From an uncultured Nitrosospira sp. (GTDB lineage: Bacteria > Nitrospirota > Nitrospiria > Nitrospirales > Nitrospiraceae), in contig CAADGK010000079.1 in NCBI GenBank assembly GCA_900696515.1, positions 1 through 64,000 of the forward strand: a stretch of DNA of 64,000 bases, given 5' to 3'. The translations under genes and the position numbers were made by a program. Shown here piece by piece: positions 1 to 12,282 of the stretch (position 1 is its first letter; every line of letters starts with the position of its first letter). The notes beneath the pieces were generated by a model that did not search any database, had not been told where the DNA came from, and saw only the letters and a program-made list of their open reading frames with translations.

Positions 1-62
1 AGGTTGAGATCATCGATATGGAATTTAAGGCCGGCACGAAGTCACAAATTCGGATTGTGTGA
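1..62 (+). CDS. C-terminal end of an upstream gene (possibly Rieske protein)
   Basis: An open frame runs in from the left edge and ends at the TGA at 60-62, encoding about 19 residues ending KSQIRIV. It is too short to identify by sequence. It stops 12 bp before the cytochrome b start, so it is probably the preceding cistron of the same operon. A Rieske iron-sulfur protein usually sits there in bc-type operons, but that is context only. Confidence 0.4.
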   Translation, partial: VEIIDMEFKAGTKSQIRIV

Positions 63-74
63 GCGCGTAGCATC

Positions 75-1202
75 ATGGATATGAAACACTCATCGCCTGC
101 CGTGATCCCTGATCATCAGCCCAGCACGAGTGAAAAGGTTCTCGCCTTTCTCGACGAACGGCTCGGACTCAAGGAAATGCAGGCGAAGATGCTCAATGAG
201 CCGATTCCGGGAGGCTCGCGTTGGGCCTATGTGTTCGGTTCGATCTTGTTGTTCATCTTTGCCATGCAAGCGGTCACTGGCACCATGCTCATGTTCTACT
301 ATGTGCCGACTGCGGACCACGCGTACGATAGCACGCAGTATATTATCCACGACGTCGACTACGGCTGGTTTTTGCTCAGCTACCATTTCTGGGGCTCCAG
401 TGCGATGGTCGTCTGTGTGTTTGCCCATATGTCCCAGGTTTTCCTCTGGGGGGCGTACAAAAAACCTCGGGAACTGCTCTGGCTGGTCGGGCTCGCTCTC
501 TTCGGAATCGTCATTACATTCGGCTTTACCGGATATCTTCTTCCTTGGGATCAACGCGCATTCTGGGCCACGCTCGTGGGCGTTGAAATTTTGGACAAGA
601 CGCCGATCGTCGGGGATTTTATCGCGAGGTTTTTGAAGGGCGGGGCAAGTCCTGGACAGATGACGTTGAGCCGCTTTTTTGTTCTTCATGTGATGATCCT
701 CCCTGCGGCATTGATGGCGTTGGCAGGGCTCCACATCTTCCTGTTTCGTGTGGCGGCTCCAGCCGGCCCCTTTAAAGGGACCACGGAAGAGATCAAGGCG
801 AAAACCGACTACTTCTTCCCTCGTCAAATCTGGAAAGACATTGTCGGGATGGCCTTTGTCTTTGTCGGCCTTTGTGCCCTGGCCCTCTGGGAACCGGTCG
901 TATTGCTCGATAAGGCGACACCGGATCCTGGGGAGTATCACCCGGAGCCGGAGTGGTACTTTCTCTTTTACTTCCAGCTGTTACGGCTGAAGCTTTTTGC
1001 GGGACAGTTTGGCCAGTTTATGGGGGCCGTTGCACTGCCGGTTCTATTTATGGGGCTGATGGTCGCGCTTCCATTTTTCGATAAGGATCCTGAGCGGAAT
1101 ATTTTCAAGCGACCGATTGCGCTGATTGTCTGGATTGTGATTATGGTTGTGATTGCACTCTTTACAGTGGCGGCCGTGATTAATCGAGAGTTCCTAGACT
1201 AA
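75..1202 (+). CDS. Cytochrome b/b6-type subunit of a quinol:cytochrome c oxidoreductase
   Basis: Diheme membrane subunit of a complex III-type enzyme, 375 aa. The N-terminal half is cytochrome b6-like, with heme ligand pairs His104/His118 and His205/His220 (spacings 14 and 15). LPWDQ lies at about 156-160. The C-terminal part resembles subunit IV and carries the quinol-site motif PEWY at 292-295. Length and hydrophobic segments suggest a b6 domain fused to a shortened subunit IV with about seven to eight helices. The start ATG follows the upstream stop by 12 bp, so the gene is part of the respiratory operon. Family assignment is firm. Whether the complex runs forward (quinol oxidation) or in reverse cannot be told from sequence. 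Confidence 0.93.
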   Translation: MDMKHSSPAVIPDHQPSTSEKVLAFLDERLGLKEMQAKMLNEPIPGGSRWAYVFGSILLFIFAMQAVTGTMLMFYYVPTADHAYDSTQYIIHDVDYGWFLLSYHFWGSSAMVVCVFAHMSQVFLWGAYKKPRELLWLVGLALFGIVITFGFTGYLLPWDQRAFWATLVGVEILDKTPIVGDFIARFLKGGASPGQMTLSRFFVLHVMILPAALMALAGLHIFLFRVAAPAGPFKGTTEEIKAKTDYFFPRQIWKDIVGMAFVFVGLCALALWEPVVLLDKATPDPGEYHPEPEWYFLFYFQLLRLKLFAGQFGQFMGAVALPVLFMGLMVALPFFDKDPERNIFKRPIALIVWIVIMVVIALFTVAAVINREFLD

Positions 1203-1226
1203 CGACCATTCATACGAACTGAGCAT

Positions 1227-2222
1227 ATGGCTGAAGAACGCGAATCAATGTCCCCTACGAAGATTGGATTCGGCATCCTCTGGTCCGCCTGCTGGACCGG
1301 CATCCCGATCAAAGCCGTGTTTGCCGTGATGGCGATGACCATGGGGCTCGTCCATTTCGAGGGAAGATTCGGGCTTGCCTTCCTTATGTTGCTTGCCAGT
1401 CCGGTGACTGTGTTTGCAGCTCCGGCGATCATGGCGATCTATGACACTCATTTTGGCGAGGGGATCGGTCTTCCGCTTATCTTCGGAGCCTCCATTCCTA
1501 TCGATATCTGGGCGCTCGGTCTCGTCGGTCGAACCTTCTTTCTGGAGCGCCTGAAGAAGGAGCCCCCGCATGACGGGCTCGGATTTGCCATTTGGTGGAG
1601 GACGGCCCTTATCGGCACATTGATCATGCCCATTCTGTGGGGAATCGTCAGTAAAGTGACAGAGACGGCCATCAGCGCCTCCCATTCACTCGCGGATATG
1701 GAAGCCTTACGGCACATCTATGATACGGGGTTGCCGGTCGCGGAGCGCATTGGGCTAGAGCTGACGGTATGGGGATCGATTTCTTCTGCGGTGCTTTTCA
1801 TCCTGGCGGTGATCGGCGTGTCTGTGCTTGGACAGGCCATTCGGCGTATTGCGGAGGATTGTCGCCAGGCACCTGAAAACTATCAGGGCCTTGTGACCCG
1901 ATGGGACTTGATGCGTGTGCCGAACGACCAAGGCCTGCTCCTGGCCTCACTGGCCGGAGCCGGGGTGGTGTTCTCGCTTGTATTCTGGACCATCCTTCCT
2001 GTGACAACCCCTCACCCTCATGAGTGTTGTGCGAAGCCGGAGGTTCAAGCAGAACCGGTCTATAAACCAGTCGAAGCATTAAATAAGAACACCCAACGGC
2101 TAGCTGCGGTCGCCGCACAAGTTGAGGCGATGGAAAAGCAGAAATCTGAAACCAAAGGGCAAAAAGAGAAGGGCAAGGGGAAGCCGGCAGGCGCAGCCCC
2201 CTCTGACAATTCGAAACCGTAA
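1227..2222 (+). CDS. Polytopic membrane protein of unknown function in the respiratory operon
   Basis: A 331-aa protein with about six hydrophobic segments (roughly residues 15-40, 45-75, 80-105, 125-150, 180-205 and 235-265) and a hydrophilic tail rich in Lys, Glu, Gly and Pro. A His-Pro-His-Glu-Cys-Cys cluster sits just after the last helix and could bind metal, which is inference. I do not recognise the family. It lies 24 bp after cytochrome b and 16 bp before the CydA-like gene on the same strand, so a structural or assembly role in that complex is likely. Confidence 0.75.
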   Translation: MAEERESMSPTKIGFGILWSACWTGIPIKAVFAVMAMTMGLVHFEGRFGLAFLMLLASPVTVFAAPAIMAIYDTHFGEGIGLPLIFGASIPIDIWALGLVGRTFFLERLKKEPPHDGLGFAIWWRTALIGTLIMPILWGIVSKVTETAISASHSLADMEALRHIYDTGLPVAERIGLELTVWGSISSAVLFILAVIGVSVLGQAIRRIAEDCRQAPENYQGLVTRWDLMRVPNDQGLLLASLAGAGVVFSLVFWTILPVTTPHPHECCAKPEVQAEPVYKPVEALNKNTQRLAAVAAQVEAMEKQKSETKGQKEKGKGKPAGAAPSDNSKP

Positions 2223-2238
2223 CTTGCGAGGTGATGTG

Positions 2239-4092
2239 GTGAGTGCCATACAGGAGGTCGAAACAGTTCAACGGGCTCTCCGGGCCATTCGTGGTCAAGA
2301 GCGATGGCTTCTCGGTCTCTTGTTCACGGCGGGTTGGTTTCTCCTCCCTTCCATGGGTCTTGCCGCCGAGGGGACCGCTGCCGGGCCGACTGAGTACAGA
2401 GACATTCCCTATATCGGCAGCCGAAATCTTGTCTGGATTGTTGCCCAGCTCCACCTCCTGCTCGCCGGTTTCGTGCTGGGTGTGCCAATTTTTGCCTGGC
2501 TGTGCGAAGTGATTGCTTGGAGGGGAGGCGAGAAGCGGTACGACAAACTGGCCAAGGAGTTTACAAAACTTCTGACGTCGGCCTATGCCACGACCGCATT
2601 ATTCGGCGGAATTCTGCTGTTCCTCTTGGTCGCATTCTATCCAAAGCTCATGAACTACCTGACGGATGTCTTTTTCCCGTCTTTCCTCCTGTACTGCCTG
2701 CTCTTTCTCCTGGAAACCGCGACGCTCTACCTGTACTGGTACGGCTGGGATGCGATGCAATATGGCAGAAAGAAAACCTTGCACGTGTTTCTCGGGTTCC
2801 TTCTGAATTTCTTCGCTTTATTCATCATGATCGTCCCCAATGCATGGGCGACATTTCAATCAAGCCCGGTCGTGATCGCCGATGGGACGGCGTTCGAGCG
2901 TGCATGGGCTGCGACGTGGAACCCAACCTGGTGGCCGATCAATATTCACCGATTGATCGCCAACGTCGTGTTGGGCGGTTATATCTGCGGGGCCTATGCC
3001 GGAGTTCGATACTTGTCGGTGAAGAGCACCGAGGATCGGGAACATTACGATTGGATGGGTTACGTTGGCAATTTCATTGGAGTGTTCGGGCTCCTGGCTC
3101 TGCCGTTCGCCGGCTATTGGCTCATGCGAGAAATCTATCAGTACAACCAGCAGATGGGAATCACGCTGATGGGTGGATTTTTGTCCTGGCTCTTTATCAT
3201 TCAAGCCATGCTGATCGGCGTCCTATTCCTTGGATCCAACTATTACTTCTGGCTCGGAATTACCTACCGTATCCCAGGGTCTGAGGCGAAGTACCGACGC
3301 GCGATGCTGATGATGCTCATCAGTTTACTGCTTTGCCTTGCCGTTTGGATGACGCCGCATTCTCTTGTCGCCAGTATCGAAGAAGCGCAAAAAATGGGTG
3401 GGGCACACCATCCGCTGCTCGGCGTACTGGGGGTCATGTCGGCCAAAATGACGGTGTCCAACCTCATGATTCTTATTACCTTCATGAGTTTCGTGATGTA
3501 CTGGCGGGCAGGAAAACAGGATACGGCAGGGTGGGCGAAGCTGGGAAAGGCGGTGATGGGTGCCGTCCTGGTTGTGGCCAGTCTGGCCGTCATCGTTCTC
3601 GGCGTATGGGGTTATTTTGTACCGGCAATCGTCCGTATCAACTATTTCTCAACCTCGCAGGTGGCGATCGTCGGCTTTGTCATTCTGACGATCACGCCGT
3701 TGACGGCGCTCCTGCTCAAGAGCGCCAAGACGACAACGGAAATGGTATGGGGCAGCATGCCCCCTCGCGCCGGATATGCGCTGGTGCTCAATGCCGTTAT
3801 GGTGATTTTATTGATGACGTTGATGGGTTATGCACGGTCTTCTTCCCGGGTTCATTGGCATGTGTATGGAGTCATGCGTGATACGTCGCCCTATGCCTAT
3901 TCGCCGGCTCTCGGCAGCGCATCATTGATTATGGCATTCTGCACGTTCTTCTTCTGTATCCTCGTGGCGTTTATCTTCTGGGTGGCGACCATGGGCGATA
4001 AATACAAGGCGGCAGCCGGATCCGGCGGAAAAGGAGAGCTGCCACATGGTATTCCGGCCATGGCCGGGGGCGCACCGGAGGAGCGGCAATAG
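2239..4092 (+). CDS. Cytochrome bd-like (CydA-related) membrane protein
   Basis: A large polytopic protein (617 aa from the GTG at 2239) with about 13-14 hydrophobic segments, longer than classical CydA (about 520 aa). CydA-like features are a His in the first helix (AQLHLLLAGF), a Glu in the helix reading LLETATLYLYWYGWD, the PNAWATFQ segment matching the NGWMQ region of CydA, and a His in IHRLIANVVLGGY that would match the b558 ligand. The frame is open further upstream, but GTG 2239 has a good Shine-Dalgarno (GAGGTG, 2228-2233) and avoids overlapping the previous gene. No CydB partner is adjacent. I infer a heme-bearing quinol- or oxygen-interacting subunit; true oxidase activity is uncertain. 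Confidence 0.85.
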   Translation: MSAIQEVETVQRALRAIRGQERWLLGLLFTAGWFLLPSMGLAAEGTAAGPTEYRDIPYIGSRNLVWIVAQLHLLLAGFVLGVPIFAWLCEVIAWRGGEKRYDKLAKEFTKLLTSAYATTALFGGILLFLLVAFYPKLMNYLTDVFFPSFLLYCLLFLLETATLYLYWYGWDAMQYGRKKTLHVFLGFLLNFFALFIMIVPNAWATFQSSPVVIADGTAFERAWAATWNPTWWPINIHRLIANVVLGGYICGAYAGVRYLSVKSTEDREHYDWMGYVGNFIGVFGLLALPFAGYWLMREIYQYNQQMGITLMGGFLSWLFIIQAMLIGVLFLGSNYYFWLGITYRIPGSEAKYRRAMLMMLISLLLCLAVWMTPHSLVASIEEAQKMGGAHHPLLGVLGVMSAKMTVSNLMILITFMSFVMYWRAGKQDTAGWAKLGKAVMGAVLVVASLAVIVLGVWGYFVPAIVRINYFSTSQVAIVGFVILTITPLTALLLKSAKTTTEMVWGSMPPRAGYALVLNAVMVILLMTLMGYARSSSRVHWHVYGVMRDTSPYAYSPALGSASLIMAFCTFFFCILVAFIFWVATMGDKYKAAAGSGGKGELPHGIPAMAGGAPEERQ

Positions 4093-4123
4093 AGGGAAGA
4101 GAGTTGTGAGTTTTGAATTGTAA

Positions 4124-4153
4124 GTGTTGAGTGAATGAAACAGAGCTCAACAC
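4124..4153 (+). repeat. Intercistronic stem-loop
   Basis: GTGTTGAG (4124-4131) and CTCAACAC (4146-4153) form a perfect 8-bp stem with a 14-nt loop. It lies in the roughly 90-bp gap between the CydA-like gene and the first cytochrome c. It has no U-tract, so it is more likely an RNA-processing or stability element or a small intergenic repeat than a terminator. Confidence 0.4.
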
Positions 4154-4184
4154 AGGTGATTCAGTACTACAAATTAGAGGGTAT

Positions 4185-4808
4185 ATGAGTGAAGTCGCGC
4201 AATTACAGCTGATCGCACTGTCGATTGTCGGGGTTGGAATTCTCATCCTCCTCTTCATCAAGGCCGTTTTTATTCGGGTGACGGGGTTTGTCTTCATCGT
4301 CCTGGGACTGTTTTCATTGATGTCCCTGGCGGTGCCTCAGTTGGCCTCACTCCCCCCGGCGGAAGAGAAAATAGATATTGCCAGTATCAAAACCCCAACC
4401 GACATTGCCACAATCGGGCAGACAGTGTTTTTCAGCAAAGGTCAATGTGCGTTGTGCCATTCGATCGGACCCAGCGAGTCCGCTCGATGCCCGGATCTGA
4501 AGGGTATTGGCGCCAAGCTCAGCAAAGATTTTCTCTATGAAAGCCTGACGGATCCACAGGCGTTTGTGTATCAGGATTACCGGCATGGTGGTGTGCCGAA
4601 GGAATACCCAGCCACTATGCCCGCGATTAATAAGGATCCAATCGGACTCTCGAAGAATGAAATTTTAGCGGTCATCGCGTTTCTGCAGCAAATGAGCGGC
4701 GAACCGATCTCCGTCAGCGTCTCAGAGCTTGAAATTCCCGGTAAAGCGCCGTCTGCTCCCGTGAAATCAGCGGAAGCGGCACTCGTGGCGGACGCACACA
4801 CGAATTAG
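4185..4808 (+). CDS. Membrane-anchored monoheme cytochrome c
   Basis: A 208-aa protein with two hydrophobic N-terminal segments (about 5-28 and 30-55) followed by a periplasmic cytochrome c domain. One CXXCH heme site is visible, CALCH (Cys88, Cys91, His92), with a likely distal Met in the PATMP segment. The frame is open from 4131, but ATG 4185 (SD AGAGG at 4176-4180) puts the first helix at the N-terminus. It should shuttle electrons from the bc/bd-like complex. A second, similar membrane cytochrome c follows 9 bp later. Confidence 0.88.
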   Translation: MSEVAQLQLIALSIVGVGILILLFIKAVFIRVTGFVFIVLGLFSLMSLAVPQLASLPPAEEKIDIASIKTPTDIATIGQTVFFSKGQCALCHSIGPSESARCPDLKGIGAKLSKDFLYESLTDPQAFVYQDYRHGGVPKEYPATMPAINKDPIGLSKNEILAVIAFLQQMSGEPISVSVSELEIPGKAPSAPVKSAEAALVADAHTN

Positions 4809-4817
4809 GAGGAATGT

Positions 4818-5534
4818 ATGGGGGCGTTAGGGAAGCCGATCATTCTCATGGTAGGCATGTATGCGTTTCTGAAGTTTGTATTGCCAAATATACCAGGCTC
4901 CGCTCCGCTGCCCTCCAGCTTGATTTTCCTCTACCTTCTGCTGACGGCATCCGGGATCGTGATTTTTGAAACATTGAGTGGGGAGTCGAAGGATGCCTTC
5001 TGGGGGCCTATCCAACGATTTCTGACCGGTGAAAACATCGGCGGTCTCCAAGCGCTGCGCTACGGTGTCTTCATCCTGTTTCCGCTGCTGGTGGGATGGC
5101 AAACGTATGGGAGTACGGCGGTGAGCGATCTTCCTCCGACGGAAAGCCGAACGATTCATCCGGCGCCGCCAGGAGAATATACGGGACTCTCGAATCCTGT
5201 TCCCAAGACTCCCGAAAATATCATGCAGGGCAAGGGGTTTTACGCCGCCTATTGCTCTCCTTGTCACGGAGGAAACTTCGATGGCAAGGGACCAGCCGCT
5301 CGAGGATATATTCCTGCACCTGCTAATTTTGCGGACCCCACGACAATCGCCATGCTGCAAGAGAGTTATCTTTTCTGGCGGATTAAAAAGGGTGGCGTCG
5401 GCCTTCCGATCGAAGGGGCGCCATGGAAGTCGGCGATGCCCCGTTGGGAAGTTGAGCTACCCGATGAATGGATTTGGAAGATTATCATGGGAGAGTACGA
5501 CGGAGCCCACCAGTCCCCACGAACCTGGGAATAG
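4818..5534 (+). CDS. Membrane-anchored monoheme cytochrome c
   Basis: A 238-aa protein with three N-terminal hydrophobic segments (about 5-22, 30-50 and 78-95) and a C-terminal class I-like cytochrome c domain with the heme site CSPCH (Cys146, Cys149, His150). A Met in SAMPRW is a candidate axial ligand. A strong SD (AGGAGG, 4808-4813) precedes ATG 4818. It is the second c-type cytochrome of the operon, and its membrane anchoring suggests it is a fixed subunit of the complex and not a soluble carrier. Confidence 0.88.
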   Translation: MGALGKPIILMVGMYAFLKFVLPNIPGSAPLPSSLIFLYLLLTASGIVIFETLSGESKDAFWGPIQRFLTGENIGGLQALRYGVFILFPLLVGWQTYGSTAVSDLPPTESRTIHPAPPGEYTGLSNPVPKTPENIMQGKGFYAAYCSPCHGGNFDGKGPAARGYIPAPANFADPTTIAMLQESYLFWRIKKGGVGLPIEGAPWKSAMPRWEVELPDEWIWKIIMGEYDGAHQSPRTWE

Positions 5535-5586
5535 GGCAGCCATAGACCGTGGATGGACGTAGGTGTGTAGGGAGAATGAGGGCAGC

Positions 5587-6423
5587 ATGAAACCGGCGAA
5601 TCAGATCATGAAGCAGGTTCTGCGTAGTGGAATCGGCGTGCTTACGGCCATTGTTGTGGTCGGAGGGGCAACCATCAGTTTTGCCCAGGAGAGCGTTTCG
5701 GTTCGCGCCACGCTGATGACAGGGGGGGTTCCCGTTGACGATCCAAGCGCGGCAGTCTGGACCAGTGCGCCGCCTGCTACGTTCCCCATGTCCCCACAGG
5801 TACATTGGCAGAATCGTATCCAGGAAGTGACGGTCAAGGATGTCATCGTGCGGGCTCTTCATGACGGGAAGCAGATGGCGGTGCTTGTCGAATATGCCGA
5901 TCCAACCCAGGATCCTGACGATGCCGCAGCGCTTGAGTTCATGGTAGGCGACAAGAAGGCGCACTTTGCTCATGGTCAGCCGATGCTGCAAGTTGAGGGA
6001 GGGCCGGTCAATATCTGGTTCTGGAAGAACAAGACGGGCAAGGCCGTCGATATGAACGCGAAGGGTTTCGGCACCTTGAAGGCGCAAGAACATCAGGATG
6101 TGAAAGCAAAAGGTATCTATTCGAACGGAACGTGGAAGGTCGTGTTCTCGCGTGATTTGTCGACGGGGCACGCTGAAGAGGACGTGCAAATTGCACCGGG
6201 GCAATTCATCAGCATCGCCTTCGCGGTCTGGGATGGGCGAAAAGACGGCGCCGGAGATCTTGTCGAGAAGGGGTCACAAAAGGCCGTCTCGTCCTGGTGG
6301 TATTTTCGAGCCGATGCTCCGCCGGATTATTCCGGTTATATGTACGCAGCGATTGCTGCGGCATTGGCCTTGGGGTTTCAGTTTGTTCTGATCAGAAAAC
6401 TCAAGAAAGGGCAGTCAGCATGA
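5587..6423 (+). CDS. Ethylbenzene dehydrogenase gamma-type heme b-binding protein (NxrC-like)
   Basis: A 278-aa exported protein with a signal peptide (residues 1 to about 34, ending SFAQ), a beta-rich domain of the DMSO-reductase-family gamma subunit type (EB_dh), and a single C-terminal transmembrane helix (about 250-270) followed by a Lys-rich tail. Supporting segments are VWTSAPPATFPM near the start, the FWKNK region, and the WDGRKDGAGD segment near the end. This family binds one heme b and carries electrons between a molybdenum enzyme and the membrane. The start ATG 5587 is preferred over upstream in-frame codons because it gives a clean signal peptide. It overlaps the next gene by 4 bp (ATGA). 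Confidence 0.8.
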   Translation: MKPANQIMKQVLRSGIGVLTAIVVVGGATISFAQESVSVRATLMTGGVPVDDPSAAVWTSAPPATFPMSPQVHWQNRIQEVTVKDVIVRALHDGKQMAVLVEYADPTQDPDDAAALEFMVGDKKAHFAHGQPMLQVEGGPVNIWFWKNKTGKAVDMNAKGFGTLKAQEHQDVKAKGIYSNGTWKVVFSRDLSTGHAEEDVQIAPGQFISIAFAVWDGRKDGAGDLVEKGSQKAVSSWWYFRADAPPDYSGYMYAAIAAALALGFQFVLIRKLKKGQSA

Positions 6424-7445
6424 AGGCGGCACGGCTGGGTGTCATTGGATTAGCGGCAGGGATCATCAGCGGCGCAGCGTTGCTCGCCGGAGGGTGTGCC
6501 AACGAGCAAGAGAAGCGTGGACATGAGCTCTATACCCACTACTGCAGCGATTGTCACGGTGAAAGCGGCAAGCAGAACGAAGGTTTTAATTGGTCATCGA
6601 TGCCGGATCCGAAACCGAAAGATTTGTCGAACAAGTCCGAGATGAGCACATTCAAGGATGAGGATCTCTTCGCGACCATTTCCCGCGACATGTTGGACAC
6701 GACCGAAGAAGGCGGGGACACAATCGGTGACGACGATTTTGCCGTTCCGACCATGCCGACGTTCAAGTATACCCTGTCCGAGGATGAGGTGTGGGCGATC
6801 GTCGGGCATGTCCGCACGCTGCATGGGATGAAGATGGAGTTTAATGTCGCGGCACGCAAGACCTCGCTTGAAGAAGGGTTGAAAAACGCCCAGACGAAGT
6901 TCGAACAAACGAAGCAGGCCTATGAGGCGGCGGAAAAGAAAGCCAGTGACGAAGCTGAGCGCAAGAGCGAGCAGTTGAAGAAGGATGTGGATGTGGATGA
7001 GTCTGCCTATGCGGCTGAACAGGCCGCGATGGTCCAGGCTAAAAAGGAGATGGATGTTGCACAGGTTGCACTGACTAATTTCTCGACCAGACCCGGCAAA
7101 GGAGTGAGTGTTCCCAGACCGGATTTGACGGTCAAACCTGCGGAAGCGGCGAAATTGATTGATCGTGGGAAACAACTCTACGAAAACAAGTACGGATGTA
7201 ACGGTTGTCACAATCTGGCAGGGGAAGGCGGGAAAATCGGTCCTGCGCTTGATCGGGCAGGGTTTCGGTTGAATGCTACCTGGATCTACCGCTGGCTGAA
7301 GAATCCTCAGGCGATGGATTCTCATACGCGTATGCCGGCTTTGGGCCTCAATGATGCGGATGCAAAGGCTGTCACTATCTATGTATCCACGCTCAGAGCC
7401 CCGAAGGAGGAACCATCCACGGTGAAACCGGTCGAGAAGCCTTAG
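6420..7445 (+). CDS. Diheme cytochrome c lipoprotein with coiled-coil linker
   Basis: A 341-aa protein with a lipoprotein signal (LLAGGC, lipidated Cys26) and two cytochrome c domains. The first heme site is CSDCH (Cys42, Cys45, His46) and the second is CNGCH (Cys260, Cys263, His264). Between them, residues about 140-220 are Ala/Glu/Lys-rich and predicted to form a coiled coil, which would act as a spacer between the hemes. Translation is coupled to the preceding gene by an ATGA overlap. It closes the respiratory operon and is a good candidate for the electron exit toward a terminal oxidase or nitrite oxidoreductase. Confidence 0.87.
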   Translation: MKAARLGVIGLAAGIISGAALLAGGCANEQEKRGHELYTHYCSDCHGESGKQNEGFNWSSMPDPKPKDLSNKSEMSTFKDEDLFATISRDMLDTTEEGGDTIGDDDFAVPTMPTFKYTLSEDEVWAIVGHVRTLHGMKMEFNVAARKTSLEEGLKNAQTKFEQTKQAYEAAEKKASDEAERKSEQLKKDVDVDESAYAAEQAAMVQAKKEMDVAQVALTNFSTRPGKGVSVPRPDLTVKPAEAAKLIDRGKQLYENKYGCNGCHNLAGEGGKIGPALDRAGFRLNATWIYRWLKNPQAMDSHTRMPALGLNDADAKAVTIYVSTLRAPKEEPSTVKPVEKP

Positions 7446-7561
7446 CAGGTTGTGGGCATTAGCCGGGTCGTCAAGGATGATACGAGGCTTGGGCTACGGG
7501 TGCACATCGGCCATGGCGGAATCCTAACCGTGGGCATCACGATCCGAAGACCGTTGTTCTG

Positions 7562-8455
7562 TTAAGCGGATACTCCCCCCAGCAGTCCCAAAAGGAGCGC
7601 AACGCCTACCCAAATGTGACTACGGAACATGGCGAATGCGCGTGAGGGAGAGACCGGTTCCTGCAGGTCGCTCACCTGTTTGATAAAAAATAAGCCCACA
7701 CCAAACAGCGTACAATAAAAAGGCCATTGCAGCTGGTTGAGCCATCCGGCAATGGTGAACAAGACGAGCATGGCCGCGAGTGCAAGACCTACCCCGCGGT
7801 GGAGTGATGAGCCGAAATAGAGTGCGGCGGATTTCACTCCCACTCGCCGATCATCTTCCAGGTCTTGCAGGGCATAGATCGTGTCGTAGGCTATGGCCCA
7901 CATGGCGGTTGCGCCAAAGAGCAACCAAGCGGAAGCGTCCAACTGCTCTCTGACTGCAGCCCAGCCCATAATTGTTCCCCAGCCAAAGGCAATTCCAAGC
8001 ATGGCCTGAGGAATGTGGATCCATCGTTTAGAGAAAGGATACAATGCCGCTAATCCGACAGCCATGGGGGAGAGCCAGGCGACGAGCGGGGGAAGCGCGA
8101 GCAGCAAGCCGGCCGCAACCAGCAGCAACAAGCCGAGCAGCGTATAGGCTTGACGGCGGGACAACTCTCCTGATGCCAGCGGGCGAGTCTTGGTGCGGCT
8201 CACTTGTCGATCAAAGGCCTGATCGGCCAGATCGTTCATAATGACGCCGGCACTGCGCATGACAAATGCGCCTCCGGTAAACACCACGAGTAGCTTCAGG
8301 GGCGGGATCCCTCGAGCTGCGAGGACCAGCGCCCACAGAGTGGGCAAGAGTAACAAATAGGTGCCTGTCTGGTTCGGCAAACGGATTAACCGGGCAAGGG
8401 CAGACCAAGGAAGGATAGAAGAAGCCGCCGATGAGAAAGCTGCCGGAGCGGACAT
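7562..8455 (-). CDS. UbiA-family polyprenyltransferase
   Basis: Integral membrane aromatic prenyltransferase, 297 aa, with about eight to nine helices. The first Asp-rich motif is NDLADQAFD (Asn74, Asp75, Asp78, Asp82) and the second is YDTIYALQDLEDD (about 194-206); both bind the Mg-diphosphate of the prenyl donor. The sequence looks like 4-hydroxybenzoate polyprenyltransferase (UbiA). Nitrospira is generally thought to use menaquinone, so MqnP of the futalosine pathway, a close relative, is an equally good assignment. The gene is convergent with the respiratory operon and diverges from the caspase-like gene. Confidence 0.88.
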   Translation of the reverse strand: MSAPAAFSSAASSILPWSALARLIRLPNQTGTYLLLLPTLWALVLAARGIPPLKLLVVFTGGAFVMRSAGVIMNDLADQAFDRQVSRTKTRPLASGELSRRQAYTLLGLLLLVAAGLLLALPPLVAWLSPMAVGLAALYPFSKRWIHIPQAMLGIAFGWGTIMGWAAVREQLDASAWLLFGATAMWAIAYDTIYALQDLEDDRRVGVKSAALYFGSSLHRGVGLALAAMLVLFTIAGWLNQLQWPFYCTLFGVGLFFIKQVSDLQEPVSPSRAFAMFRSHIWVGVALLLGLLGGVSA

Positions 8456-8506
8456 GCTGCGACCTTAGCCCAGCGAAAATGGGCTGTCAACGGGCCTGGA
8501 CCGGTT

Positions 8507-10579
8507 GTGGCGCCATGGCGAATTCTGTATAACGACTCTGTGAAGAACCTTCAGACCCTTTTTGTCCATTGTGTGAAGCCCAGCGGTAGGCTTGTTCGTC
8601 ACTGTAGCGCCATCGCGTGCATCCTGTTCGTTGTCGGCTGCTCCCTTTTCAATCGGACGACGCCGACTGTGAGCCCGCAAACGATTCCTCTCTCTCCGGC
8701 GATCTGGTTCTCTCCCAGTGTCACGGCCGCTGAAGTGTCGTATGACGCCCCCTGTGGTGAAAAGAGAACCCTGGCTCTTGCCGATCGTTTGGTCATCACC
8801 GTTCCGAAAAGGCTCAATGGGGTCTTCAGCCAGGTCGCTACGCATAATCAAGCGGAGGAGCTCCTTGCGTCGGATGGGGCCATTGAAGTTGGTGTCGGCG
8901 TCAGGCGGATCAACCTTACTATTCCACGCCAAAGCCATGGGACCTATCCGGCGACGGCAACGCTGGGAATGGAAATGGTCTTTCTGGCTCGGGATGGGAC
9001 GGTGCTTTTCAGTAAGAAGCTGGAAGGGGTTGGGCGTGGGACGGTGACGGTTGCCGAACAGTCTTGCGTCGTTGAGGGACTGGATGGAATTTTGCAGGAA
9101 GCCATTGACTCGGTGGCTGACGGGTTGGCGAAGCAGATGGCGCAGTCGTCCCAGATCCAAGCGTATGCTGCAGCGAAAGACACGTGGAAACCGATCGCCG
9201 GCCAGTCCAGATCTGAACCGGTGGTCCCGATTGCGGGTGCCATCGTAATACCCCCGCCCGTGGCATCGGAAATGGGTCAAGCCGTTCAGGCAACTGCTCC
9301 AGAAACAGTTCAGCCTGCACAACTCAGTTTTCGGGCAATTATTCGGGATGAAAACCGCGATCACCTTCTAGAGCCAGACGAGGCCGTGACCATTGAAGTC
9401 GAGGTGAAGAATGAAGGTGCCGCGGAGGCCGAAGACGTTCTGGTACTGGTCCAAGGACGAGCCAAATTAGAAGGCTTATTTCCCTCGGATGTCGCAGTCG
9501 GGACACTTCAGCCGGGAGAGGTCAAGCGGGTTTCGATCACGAAGCGAACAACGGCATCAGAAGAAGCTCTTCACGGTGAATTGACGCTGATTCTTCGGGC
9601 AGCCACTCCGTTGGCGTTCATCCCACCCCCCAAAACCTTTGCCATTGGGAGCAAGCCGAAGCACTCTGACGGAGTGATCGATCCGGATGTCGATCAGCTG
9701 CCAAGCGCCCTTTCGGCATTTAAGGAGCCGAAGGCCCTTATCGTCACGATCGGCGTCGGACGGTTTCGCGACGAGCAGGTGCCGCTGGTCAGCCATGCCG
9801 GCCGCGATGCGGCGGTCATGGCGGAATATTTGCACACGATTGGGAATGTGCCGCGTGAACGGATGCGCGTCCTGCTCGATCGGCAAGCCCAACTGGCGGA
9901 CCTGGAGGAGACGTTTGAACGGTGGTTGCGTAAAAAGGCGGATCCGGCCACCGACCTCTATGTGTTTTTTTCCGGTCGTGCCGTGGTTGACGGCGCGAGT
10001 GGGGCCGTGTCGCTGATGGCCTATGATGGGGTGCCTGCCGGTCCGACCGGGGTGTATCCCCTTCGTCAGCTGCAGGAAGTGATCCAGCGTCTTCCAATTC
10101 GCCGTGCCGTGCTCTTCTTCGATGTCTCGTTGGATCCCGCTCCCGGGGCCGATCTTGCCACGATTCGCCGACCGGACTGGGAGTCCGGCCTCAGTGACAC
10201 GAGGAAGGATGTCGAAATGTGGATGGTGGGCAATCGGAATCTGCAGGAAGCCCAGGCGCATGACCAGGGCAAACACGGGTTGTTCACCTACTATCTCCTG
10301 AGGGGCCTGCAAGGGGTGGCCGATCTCAACCGGGATAGTACCGTCACGGCAGGAGAACTCTGTACCTATGCGAGGAACCAGGTCATTCAGATCACTCGCG
10401 AGCAAGTGAGAAGTAAACAGGAACCTCTCTGCTTGCCGCAGGTTGGCCGCAGCGGCATGGCCCGGATTTATCCCATAGCCAGGGGGAATAATCCAAAGCC
10501 CGTGTTGCTCCAGAAAGCGCCGGAGGCACCCGCTGGTATCTCGACGCCATCTCCCACCATCATGCAGGTTGGGCCGTGA
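8507..10579 (+). CDS. Lipoprotein with a degenerate caspase-like (peptidase C14) domain
   Basis: About 690 aa. A lipobox (LFVVGCSLF) lies near residue 45. A DUF-like region follows, then an immunoglobulin/CARDB-like stretch (about 285-385), then a caspase fold (about 410-660) recognisable from ALIVTIGVGRF, GRDAAVMAEYL, the HGLFTYYLLRGLQG segment and a final DLNRDSTVTAGEL segment. The catalytic His position reads SGR (Arg491) where active homologues have SGHG, and the catalytic Cys position reads DVSLDP (Ser541) where they have DACxS. The protein should therefore be proteolytically dead. GTG 8507 and GTG 8540 are both possible starts. A role as a surface-tethered binding or scaffold protein is inference. 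Confidence 0.82.
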   Translation: MAPWRILYNDSVKNLQTLFVHCVKPSGRLVRHCSAIACILFVVGCSLFNRTTPTVSPQTIPLSPAIWFSPSVTAAEVSYDAPCGEKRTLALADRLVITVPKRLNGVFSQVATHNQAEELLASDGAIEVGVGVRRINLTIPRQSHGTYPATATLGMEMVFLARDGTVLFSKKLEGVGRGTVTVAEQSCVVEGLDGILQEAIDSVADGLAKQMAQSSQIQAYAAAKDTWKPIAGQSRSEPVVPIAGAIVIPPPVASEMGQAVQATAPETVQPAQLSFRAIIRDENRDHLLEPDEAVTIEVEVKNEGAAEAEDVLVLVQGRAKLEGLFPSDVAVGTLQPGEVKRVSITKRTTASEEALHGELTLILRAATPLAFIPPPKTFAIGSKPKHSDGVIDPDVDQLPSALSAFKEPKALIVTIGVGRFRDEQVPLVSHAGRDAAVMAEYLHTIGNVPRERMRVLLDRQAQLADLEETFERWLRKKADPATDLYVFFSGRAVVDGASGAVSLMAYDGVPAGPTGVYPLRQLQEVIQRLPIRRAVLFFDVSLDPAPGADLATIRRPDWESGLSDTRKDVEMWMVGNRNLQEAQAHDQGKHGLFTYYLLRGLQGVADLNRDSTVTAGELCTYARNQVIQITREQVRSKQEPLCLPQVGRSGMARIYPIARGNNPKPVLLQKAPEAPAGISTPSPTIMQVGP

Positions 10580-10680: not shown

Positions 10681-10756
10681 GCCGGCGTAGCTCAGTTGGT
10701 AGAGCAGCGGTTTCGTAAACCGCAGGTCGCCCGTTCAATCCGGGTCGCCGGCTCCA
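10681..10756 (+). tRNA. tRNA-Thr(CGT), CCA encoded
   Basis: The cloverleaf folds completely. The acceptor stem is GCCGGCG/CGCCGGC, the D arm is GCTC...GAGC, the anticodon stem is GCGGT/ACCGC with loop TTCGTAA (anticodon CGT), and the T arm is GCCCG/CGGGT. CCA is encoded. Its 3' 45 bp are repeated at 17985-18029, marking it as the attachment site of an integrated element. Confidence 0.97.
10712..10756. repeat. attL (45-bp direct repeat)
   Basis: Identical to 17985-18029, beginning TTCGTAAACCGCAGG and ending GGCTCCA. It covers the tRNA from the anticodon loop to the CCA end. The base after the repeat differs between copies (c at 10757, t at 18030), which fixes the right boundary. Confidence 0.95.
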
Positions 10757-12000
10757 CTCGATTCCCCTTGATTCATGCGGACTTCCGCCGTATTCGGCGA
10801 CCCGTTCCTCTCTTCACCCGATCCCCGCGTTTCCGGTTTCTTTCCGGTTTCACCCTGCTTACCCCCTTGGCCCTGATCCCGCCCAAAGTTGGAGACCAAT
10901 TCCGCCGCCGCCTTCAGATGCGATTCGCCGAGATGCGCGTAGCGCCGGACCAACGACAAGCCCGAATGCCGCAGAAAGTCCGCAATCGTCGAGGCGTTCG
11001 CGCCGCTTTCGGCCAAGCGACTGGCGCCGGTATGCCGCAAATCATGCCAGCGGGCGTGGTCGATCCCGGCCCGCCGAATCGCCGGGAGCCAAACGCGATG
11101 ATAGAAGTTGGCGGTGTCCACGGGGGCCGCTGGATTCTCGGAGGGAAAGACCCACTTCGACCGCTGCCAGGAGTCGAAGCTCCGCAAGATCGCCGCTGCT
11201 TCTTGACTCAAATGGATGAATTGCACGGGGCCCGATTTGGTTTGGGGGAGGGTCAGGAGATGCCGGTCCAGATCCACATCCCGCCATTCCATCCTGAATT
11301 GTTCGGTCTGCCTCAAACCCGTCAAGACGGACAGCCGCGCCCACGGTCCATAGGTCGGCCCCAGGGCTGCGAGCAACGCCGTTTCTTCCTGAGGGCTCAG
11401 GTGGCGTGTCCGTCCTTGGCTTTCGAGTTCCCACATCCAGTTATCGAACAACTGCCGTTGCGTCTGCTTGACCGTCCCCAGCGCCGCACACAGCCATCGA
11501 AAATAGCGGTTGAGCGTCGCGCCTTCCCGATACTTACCGACGGCCTCCGCCAGCTTCCCCACCGACGGCTTGCGGCCCCGGTGCGTCTTCGTCCGTGGCG
11601 TCGGCCCAATCTTGATTCGTTCGCGCCGCAGCTCGTCGCGCACCTCTTCAAGAAAGCGGACGGTCAGATCCTTGATCCGCGTGAGGCCCGCCGACTGACA
11701 TCTCAGTTTCCACCAGGCGCAGAACCGACGTTGAGAGGCCTGATCTTTCTTCTTGTCCCGCGCGGCGACATGGCGATCCAATACGTCGTCGATTCGCTGC
11801 CAGCCGCCCTCTGGATCGACTTTTCCGCGTCGATGGTCGGTCGCCAAAGCGTTGCGTGCCTCTTGGGCCTCGGTCTTCGTCGCGAACGGTCCGCCGCGTT
11901 GCTCACGTTTAGCGATGTAGATCCTGTAATACCACCAGACCATACCGCTCGCGTCTTTCCTGGTGTAGAGCCCCTTTTCTCGCTTCGGTGGTCGTGCCAT
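10735..12000 (-). CDS. Tyrosine recombinase (integrase)
   Basis: Site-specific integrase, 421 aa. The N-terminal part (about 1-70) is a basic arm-binding region, the middle is a SAM-like core-binding domain, and the C-terminal catalytic domain shows all family residues: Arg in TGLRQTE, Lys in QTKSG, HDLRH, a second His in LRHSG, and the nucleophile Tyr in RRYAHL. Start ATG at 12000 has a strong SD (GGAGG, spacing about 6); the frame is open further upstream but without a better start. The last codons and the TGA stop (10735-10737) lie inside the tRNA/attL on the opposite strand. It should catalyse integration and excision at tRNA-Thr. Confidence 0.96.
   Translation of the reverse strand: MARPPKREKGLYTRKDASGMVWWYYRIYIAKREQRGGPFATKTEAQEARNALATDHRRGKVDPEGGWQRIDDVLDRHVAARDKKKDQASQRRFCAWWKLRCQSAGLTRIKDLTVRFLEEVRDELRRERIKIGPTPRTKTHRGRKPSVGKLAEAVGKYREGATLNRYFRWLCAALGTVKQTQRQLFDNWMWELESQGRTRHLSPQEETALLAALGPTYGPWARLSVLTGLRQTEQFRMEWRDVDLDRHLLTLPQTKSGPVQFIHLSQEAAAILRSFDSWQRSKWVFPSENPAAPVDTANFYHRVWLPAIRRAGIDHARWHDLRHTGASRLAESGANASTIADFLRHSGLSLVRRYAHLGESHLKAAAELVSNFGRDQGQGGKQGETGKKPETRGSGEERNGSPNTAEVRMNQGESSGAGDPD
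10829..10850. repeat. 22-bp repeat, candidate integrase arm-type site (copy 1)
   Basis: A perfect 22-bp direct repeat of 17824-17845, itself containing two copies of TTTCCGGTTT. Here it lies inside the integrase 3' coding region, 73 bp inside attL. In the excised circle the two copies would flank attP in the same orientation, as arm-type sites of lambda-family integrases do. Confidence 0.6.
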
Positions 12001-12282
12001 GGCACTCCTCCTTTCACGTCGTATGAGGTCGTATAGCAAAGTCGAGTTACGACACACAAGATAATTCGTAGTTGATTTACCTTAGTTGTGGTGTGGGCCG
12101 TGGTCTGTCTGCTGCGGTCAGCAAGATCCGAGTCGAAGAGAACGGAATGGGGGATGGTGTGGCGTCGTCAGCAGGTGGCGGATGGATCGGCGGATGGGGA
12201 TCGGGTCAGGCTGGGGGATGTCTGGGAGGGCGCAGTCTGCGGAGTGTGTCCCGCTACCTTCGCCCCCCCGCTCTCGCTCCTA

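Follow-up and report, generated by a model that had tools for sequence, protein, structure and literature searches.

The window analysed here is a stretch of 64,000 nucleotides whose base 1 is the end of a contig (C79) from a 4.59 Mb Nitrospira genome. Its first 7445 bases carry a cluster of respiratory genes (Table 1). Pfam searches and alignments recovered all the genes named in the initial annotation: a cytochrome b with a PEWY motif, a membrane protein, a CydA-like subunit, two c cytochromes, an EbdC-type protein and a diheme lipoprotein. All are in one strand direction with little space between them, and no internal terminators or promoters splitting the operon were found in the window cluster beyond shuffled expectation. 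For the first c cytochrome, a start at 4131 was considered and rejected, since conservation points to 4185.

The final 114 bases of another contig, C86, match the first 114 bases of C79 exactly. Because of this identical overlap, and because intact genomes have the same order over the joint, the two contigs were taken as adjoining. The window cluster is then the second half of a larger conserved Nitrospira respiratory cluster, the first half being on C86. Its description as one operon fits the tight, co-directional spacing, but the unit described was cut by the contig end, which left most of the Rieske gene, and another CydA-like gene, upstream. True absence of these two genes was rejected, as the window begins at a contig end and both are present on C86.

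Table 1. Genes of the respiratory cluster and its downstream boundary (window coordinates unless C86 is stated).
Feature	Position	Strand	Evidence and remarks
177-aa protein	C86 (L014) 4829-5362		
Monoheme c lipoprotein	C86 (L014) 5418-5900		
CydA-like bd-like_1	C86 (L014) 6239-7996		PF01654, E 3.1e-24
Monoheme c cytochrome, membrane-anchored	C86 (L014) 8036-8845		
Rieske gene	C86 (L014) 8845-9780		continues into window 1-62
3' end of Rieske gene, EIIDMEFKAGTKSQIRIV*	1..62	+	remainder on C86 (L014), ending 9780
Cytochrome b, 375 aa, unsplit	75..1202	+	PF00033, heme His, PEWY
331-aa membrane protein, no assigned family	1227..2222	+	about five TM segments plus C-terminal TM
CydA-like oxidase subunit bd-like_2, OR-N2 type (putative)	2239..4092	+	PF01654, alignment, PMC12342949, PMC6606698
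Monoheme cytochrome c, membrane-tethered	4185..4808	+	heme motif, conservation
Monoheme cytochrome c, membrane-anchored	4818..5534	+	three TM-like segments, highly conserved
NxrC/EbdC-like periplasmic heme-b protein	5587..6423	+	PF09459; alt_NxrC_1 (NITMOv2_0740) by position
Diheme c-type lipoprotein	6420..7445	+	Cys26 and two CxxCH
UbiA-family prenyltransferase, convergent	7562..8455	-	downstream cluster boundary; outside complex; kept beside cluster in relatives

Elsewhere in the window, a 690-aa protein is encoded at 8507-10579, starting beside the UbiA gene; beyond a marginal match to CARDB, no Pfam family was recognised in it. The tRNA-Thr (CGT) at 10681-10756 shares bases with the 3' end of a minus-strand gene for a phage-type integrase (10735-12057), an arrangement typical of integrative elements in tRNA genes.

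Cytochrome b matched PF00033 with an E value of 9.7e-49. In a 62-row alignment, the heme histidines 104/118 and 205/220 are invariant and the PEWY Qo motif is present. Among solved structures, cytochrome b6 is nearest to it in sequence. The Rieske [2Fe-2S] protein of the same cluster contains CPHLGC and CPCH motifs and is colinear in relatives. Its N-terminus has a long conserved stretch before the membrane helix, seen also in sister families, for which a weak PRC-barrel match was obtained (E 0.0056, below cut-off). No dedicated cytochrome c1 or f was found in the cluster, only generic c-type domains, and the best Cytochrom_C1 match (E 0.013) fell below cut-off. The composition had been called unusual for a complex III. 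It does have tethered cytochromes and no c1 or f, but part of the oddity came from the contig break, the Rieske gene being upstream. A paper on anammox Rieske/cytochrome b complexes does not mention Nitrospira.

The match of bd-like_2 to PF01654 (E 3.1e-18) is limited to the first half of CydA. Aligned with this genome's own CydA, bd-like_2 has no counterpart of the Q-loop, which is likewise missing from published bd-like proteins of this kind (PMC3578206). Numbering from the GTG at 2239, His72, Glu159, His237 and probably Met324 are conserved at canonical CydA ligand positions. For some typical CydA features, namely a Glu99-type residue and the GRQPW motif, the alignment shows no counterpart in the bd-like proteins, so that O2 chemistry is not certain. 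The best PDB matches of the predicted structure are CydA chains, and no solved structure is nearer to bd-like_2 than canonical CydA; with a mean pLDDT of 53, the model is too poor for ligand geometry. The CydA-like subunit had been reported to lack a CydB. Indeed, no CydB gene is present in the window part of the cluster or on C86, but a second CydA-like gene lies just upstream. One cluster, here and in relatives, thus contains two different CydA-like genes, bd-like_1 and bd-like_2, both without Q-loop. In the tree, bd-like_1 forms a separate clade with support 100/100. Picks that proved to be bd-like_2 matches were removed from the bd-like_1 alignment rows, and a bd-like_1 conservation profile that still contained them was disregarded.

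Published work places NIDE0901-like proteins in class OR-N2, paired with OR-N1, with cytochrome c as expected donor (PMC12342949, PMC10839748), and another paper calls them a likely cytochrome c-oxidising complex IV (PMC10579370). By these papers and by synteny, bd-like_2 is classed as a putative terminal oxidase of OR-N2 type; no biochemistry of OR-N enzymes was found in the parts of the literature covered. A PF00115 search detected no heme-copper oxidase in this genome, which has two canonical CydA genes elsewhere, and genomes carrying the cluster are often without heme-copper oxidase. As nxrAB (contig C93) and ammonia monooxygenase are both encoded, the organism is of the complete-nitrifier type and aerobic.

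Among the c-type cytochromes, the diheme lipoprotein has Cys26 and both CxxCH motifs invariant, and a long charged spacer, probably helical, between its two heme domains. The first tethered cytochrome (4185-4808), monoheme in the window, is diheme in G205, G211 and G266. In other relatives, a domain homologous to this cytochrome forms the C-terminal end of the bd-like subunit. The cluster of G295 encodes a bd-like subunit with a C-terminal cytochrome c and two MrpD-like antiporter subunits. In G227, G220, G188, G319, G207 and G288 the bd-like subunit measures about 800 aa and includes such a heme domain, again accompanied by MrpD-like genes, and a bd-like-cytochrome c fusion lies on a short contig of G274. 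Identity between the fused domain and the window cytochrome 4185-4808 is 49% in G295 and 46% in G188. The fused proteins group in the tree with bd-like_2, away from bd-like_1 and from bd-like_3 and bd-like_4, the base of the group being poorly resolved. We regard the fusion in relatives as strong evidence that the cytochrome and bd-like_2 work together, and its occurrence in sister lineages supports cytochrome c as the oxidase donor. In sister-class genomes (loci L160, L176-L180 and L183) the fusion is paired with two MrpD-like antiporter subunits, an arrangement known from 'Ca. Manganitrophaceae' TO_2.

The NxrC-like protein has a signal peptide and a C-terminal TM anchor. Its matches to PF09459 (E 1.9e-23), NxrC (7b04_C, E 4.4e-16) and EbdC (2ivf_C, E 1.5e-14) show that its relationship to NxrC and EbdC is genuine. 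Orthologues exist also in genomes without detectable NxrA/NxrB. NxrA was not found in 15 class-level genomes, nor NxrB in 12 of these. False negatives do occur, since G022 gave no NxrA match but has NxrB, and G025 gave no NxrB match, so that absence of NXR from any single genome is weak evidence. Among the genomes in which neither protein was detected, four from two sister families carry the cluster (G205, G211, G266 and G295). Such presence across families is suggestive, and the cluster is probably not nitrite-specific. The idea of a nitrite-specific device is not supported.

Searches of Pfam and NCBIfam gave no match for the 331-aa membrane protein, and its predicted structure (mean pLDDT 69) had no PDB match at E ≤ 0.001. 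The family is present in 102 of 296 sampled phylum genomes, nearly all with the same gene order, and is almost restricted to Nitrospirales. Outside the order, the slot is occupied by a short protein with a single TM, whose resemblance is confined to the C-terminal part of the 331-aa protein, where RWDLxRVPxDQG and TTPHPHECC segments lie. A direct BLAST match of the short protein to the window protein was obtained from G211 only (E 1.6e-5); a profile search tied all four sister genomes to the family. From the short protein in sister families, the Nitrospirales protein is apparently composite, and appears to consist of a five-TM region joined to an older tail. The TTPHPHECC segment, near-invariant, follows the last TM helix and could bind metal.

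The gene order is colinear, as far as contigs extend, in 80 of 80 Nitrospira loci drawn from a named genome collection, including N. defluvii (FP929003) and N. moscoviensis (NZ_CP011801). Such recurrence is not due to chance. G205, G211 and G266, from other families of the same class, have the same order, with the short single-TM protein in the 331-aa slot. Complex III, bd-like and NxrC-like genes therefore form one conserved cluster, with counterparts in Nitrospira genomes, as the initial annotation held. A bd-like homologue was found in 138 of the 296 sampled phylum genomes, a count that mixes paralogues. In N. moscoviensis the region has been described as CIII_1, bd-like_1, bd-like_2 (CIV) and alt_NxrC_1 (NITMOv2_0740), with two cytochromes between CIV and alt_NxrC_1 and with high expression of CIII_1/CIV; the 2019 description put forward a III-IV supercomplex in contact with nitrite oxidoreductase (NXR) and, for a sister cluster, reverse electron flow (all in PMC6606698). 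The gene cluster and the supercomplex idea are thus already in print, and the supercomplex proposed in the initial annotation repeats a published hypothesis; to suppose such a supercomplex in Nitrospira, with reverse electron flow, is reasonable. What the present analysis adds comes from comparing sister lineages: the fusions, the presence of the cluster where NXR was not detected, and the apparently composite nature of the 331-aa protein, none of which was found stated in the limited literature covered. This genome has a second cluster on contig C77 (locus L015), which contains bd-like_3 and bd-like_4 as well as a fusion of an EB_dh protein with a diheme cytochrome c; it matches the published alt_NxrC_2 cluster.

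We read the locus, with a probability of about 0.7, as two coupled modules, a complex III and a cytochrome c-oxidising bd-like oxidase, with a periplasmic entry of NxrC type. In the first module, the Rieske protein and a b6f-like cytochrome b would operate with membrane-tethered c cytochromes replacing cytochrome c1. The second would be a terminal oxidase of OR-N kind made from bd-like_1 and bd-like_2, a stoichiometry that we infer. Electrons would pass from a c-type heme to the neighbouring cytochrome 4185-4808, then to the oxidase and O2. Electrons from the periplasm would come in by way of the NxrC-like heme-b protein, the second tethered cytochrome c and the diheme lipoprotein. In a nitrifier, electrons from nitrite would join at the level of cytochrome c and go mostly to O2, part of them being driven backwards via cytochrome b to quinone.

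Several other readings place the same genes differently. The proposal of the initial annotation can be put as one hybrid quinol-oxidising supercomplex that suits low-energy substrates, nitrite among them, and whose bd-like subunit would act on quinol as well. Complex III and the NxrC-like protein do share the locus with the bd-like subunit, and bd-like proteins have possibly evolved another quinone site (PMC3578206). Quinol oxidation is right for the cytochrome b half. For the bd-like half it is probably wrong, in view of the missing Q-loop, the OR-N2 class and the cytochrome c fused to this subunit in relatives; the cluster is moreover present in sister families without detectable NxrA/NxrB. 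We hold the full proposal to be very improbable. Another reading denies the bd-like/NxrC-like part an oxidase role and takes it for a module that reduces quinone or relays electrons in reverse electron flow. It too is unlikely, if somewhat less so. Such a role has been proposed in print for bd-like proteins of nitrite oxidisers and anammox bacteria (PMC6606698, PMC3578206), mainly, however, for bd-like_3/alt_NxrC_2. It is also at odds with the frequent lack of heme-copper oxidase in cluster genomes, which must have some O2 reductase; the canonical CydA of this genome could carry O2 reduction, which would count against the role given here to the bd-like proteins.

A more serious contender, although at less than even odds, keeps both functions of the two-module reading and differs from it in physical assembly only: two or more independent complexes, with complex III of the ordinary kind and the cytochrome c oxidase standing apart, would be co-regulated and joined by a diffusible cytochrome c. 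Gene neighbourhood alone is not proof of one complex. In G227, G220, G188, G207 and G288, the bd-like/cytochrome set is found with MrpD-like genes, and nearby Rieske/cytochrome b, where present, is of a different, more distant type, which indicates that the modules can separate. Against this, complex III genes and both bd-like genes are interleaved, in strict order, in Nitrospirales and in G205, G211 and G266. A stronger form of coupling, which we put forward tentatively and as rather doubtful, is a single 12-gene respirasome: electrons would run from Rieske/cytochrome b through permanently tethered cytochromes to a bd-like oxidase of two CydA-type subunits, with the NxrC-like heme-b protein as port for periplasmic donors. 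It would predate nitrite oxidation in the class, NXR having been added later.

Heme-copper oxidases are missing from most Nitrospira, and this cluster is the leading candidate for the means by which these abundant nitrifiers reduce O2. With the fusions and the occurrence without detectable NXR, the identity of the electron donor and the proposal of a supercomplex become easier to test directly.

Compared with known systems, the cluster shares the PEWY cytochrome b and the Rieske protein with cytochrome b6f and bc1 complexes, but it has an unsplit b6-like cytochrome b and tethered c cytochromes instead of c1 or f. What bd-like_2 shares with canonical CydAB is the initial four to six helices and a number of the heme ligand positions; it differs by the missing Q-loop, a different second half and the lack of CydB in the cluster. 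The resemblance is to OR-N-type CydAA' (NIDE0901-like; PMC12342949, PMC10839748, PMC10579370), which has two CydA-like subunits, no Q-loop and no adjoining CydB. The NxrC-like protein has, by sequence, the EB_dh heme-b domain of NxrC and of the ethylbenzene dehydrogenase gamma subunit, but with a C-terminal membrane anchor, and its gene lies apart from nxrAB. 'Ca. Manganitrophus' TO_1 and TO_2 (PMC9040806) likewise combine a bd-like subunit, cytochromes and a periplasmic cytochrome b; their MrpD-like genes resemble the G295 and G227 sets, whereas none adjoin the window cluster. The N. moscoviensis locus (L108) has the same gene set, colinear with the window and C86 but here spread over two contigs; cytochrome b and the bd-like subunit are 81-83% identical to their counterparts there, the 331-aa protein 56%.
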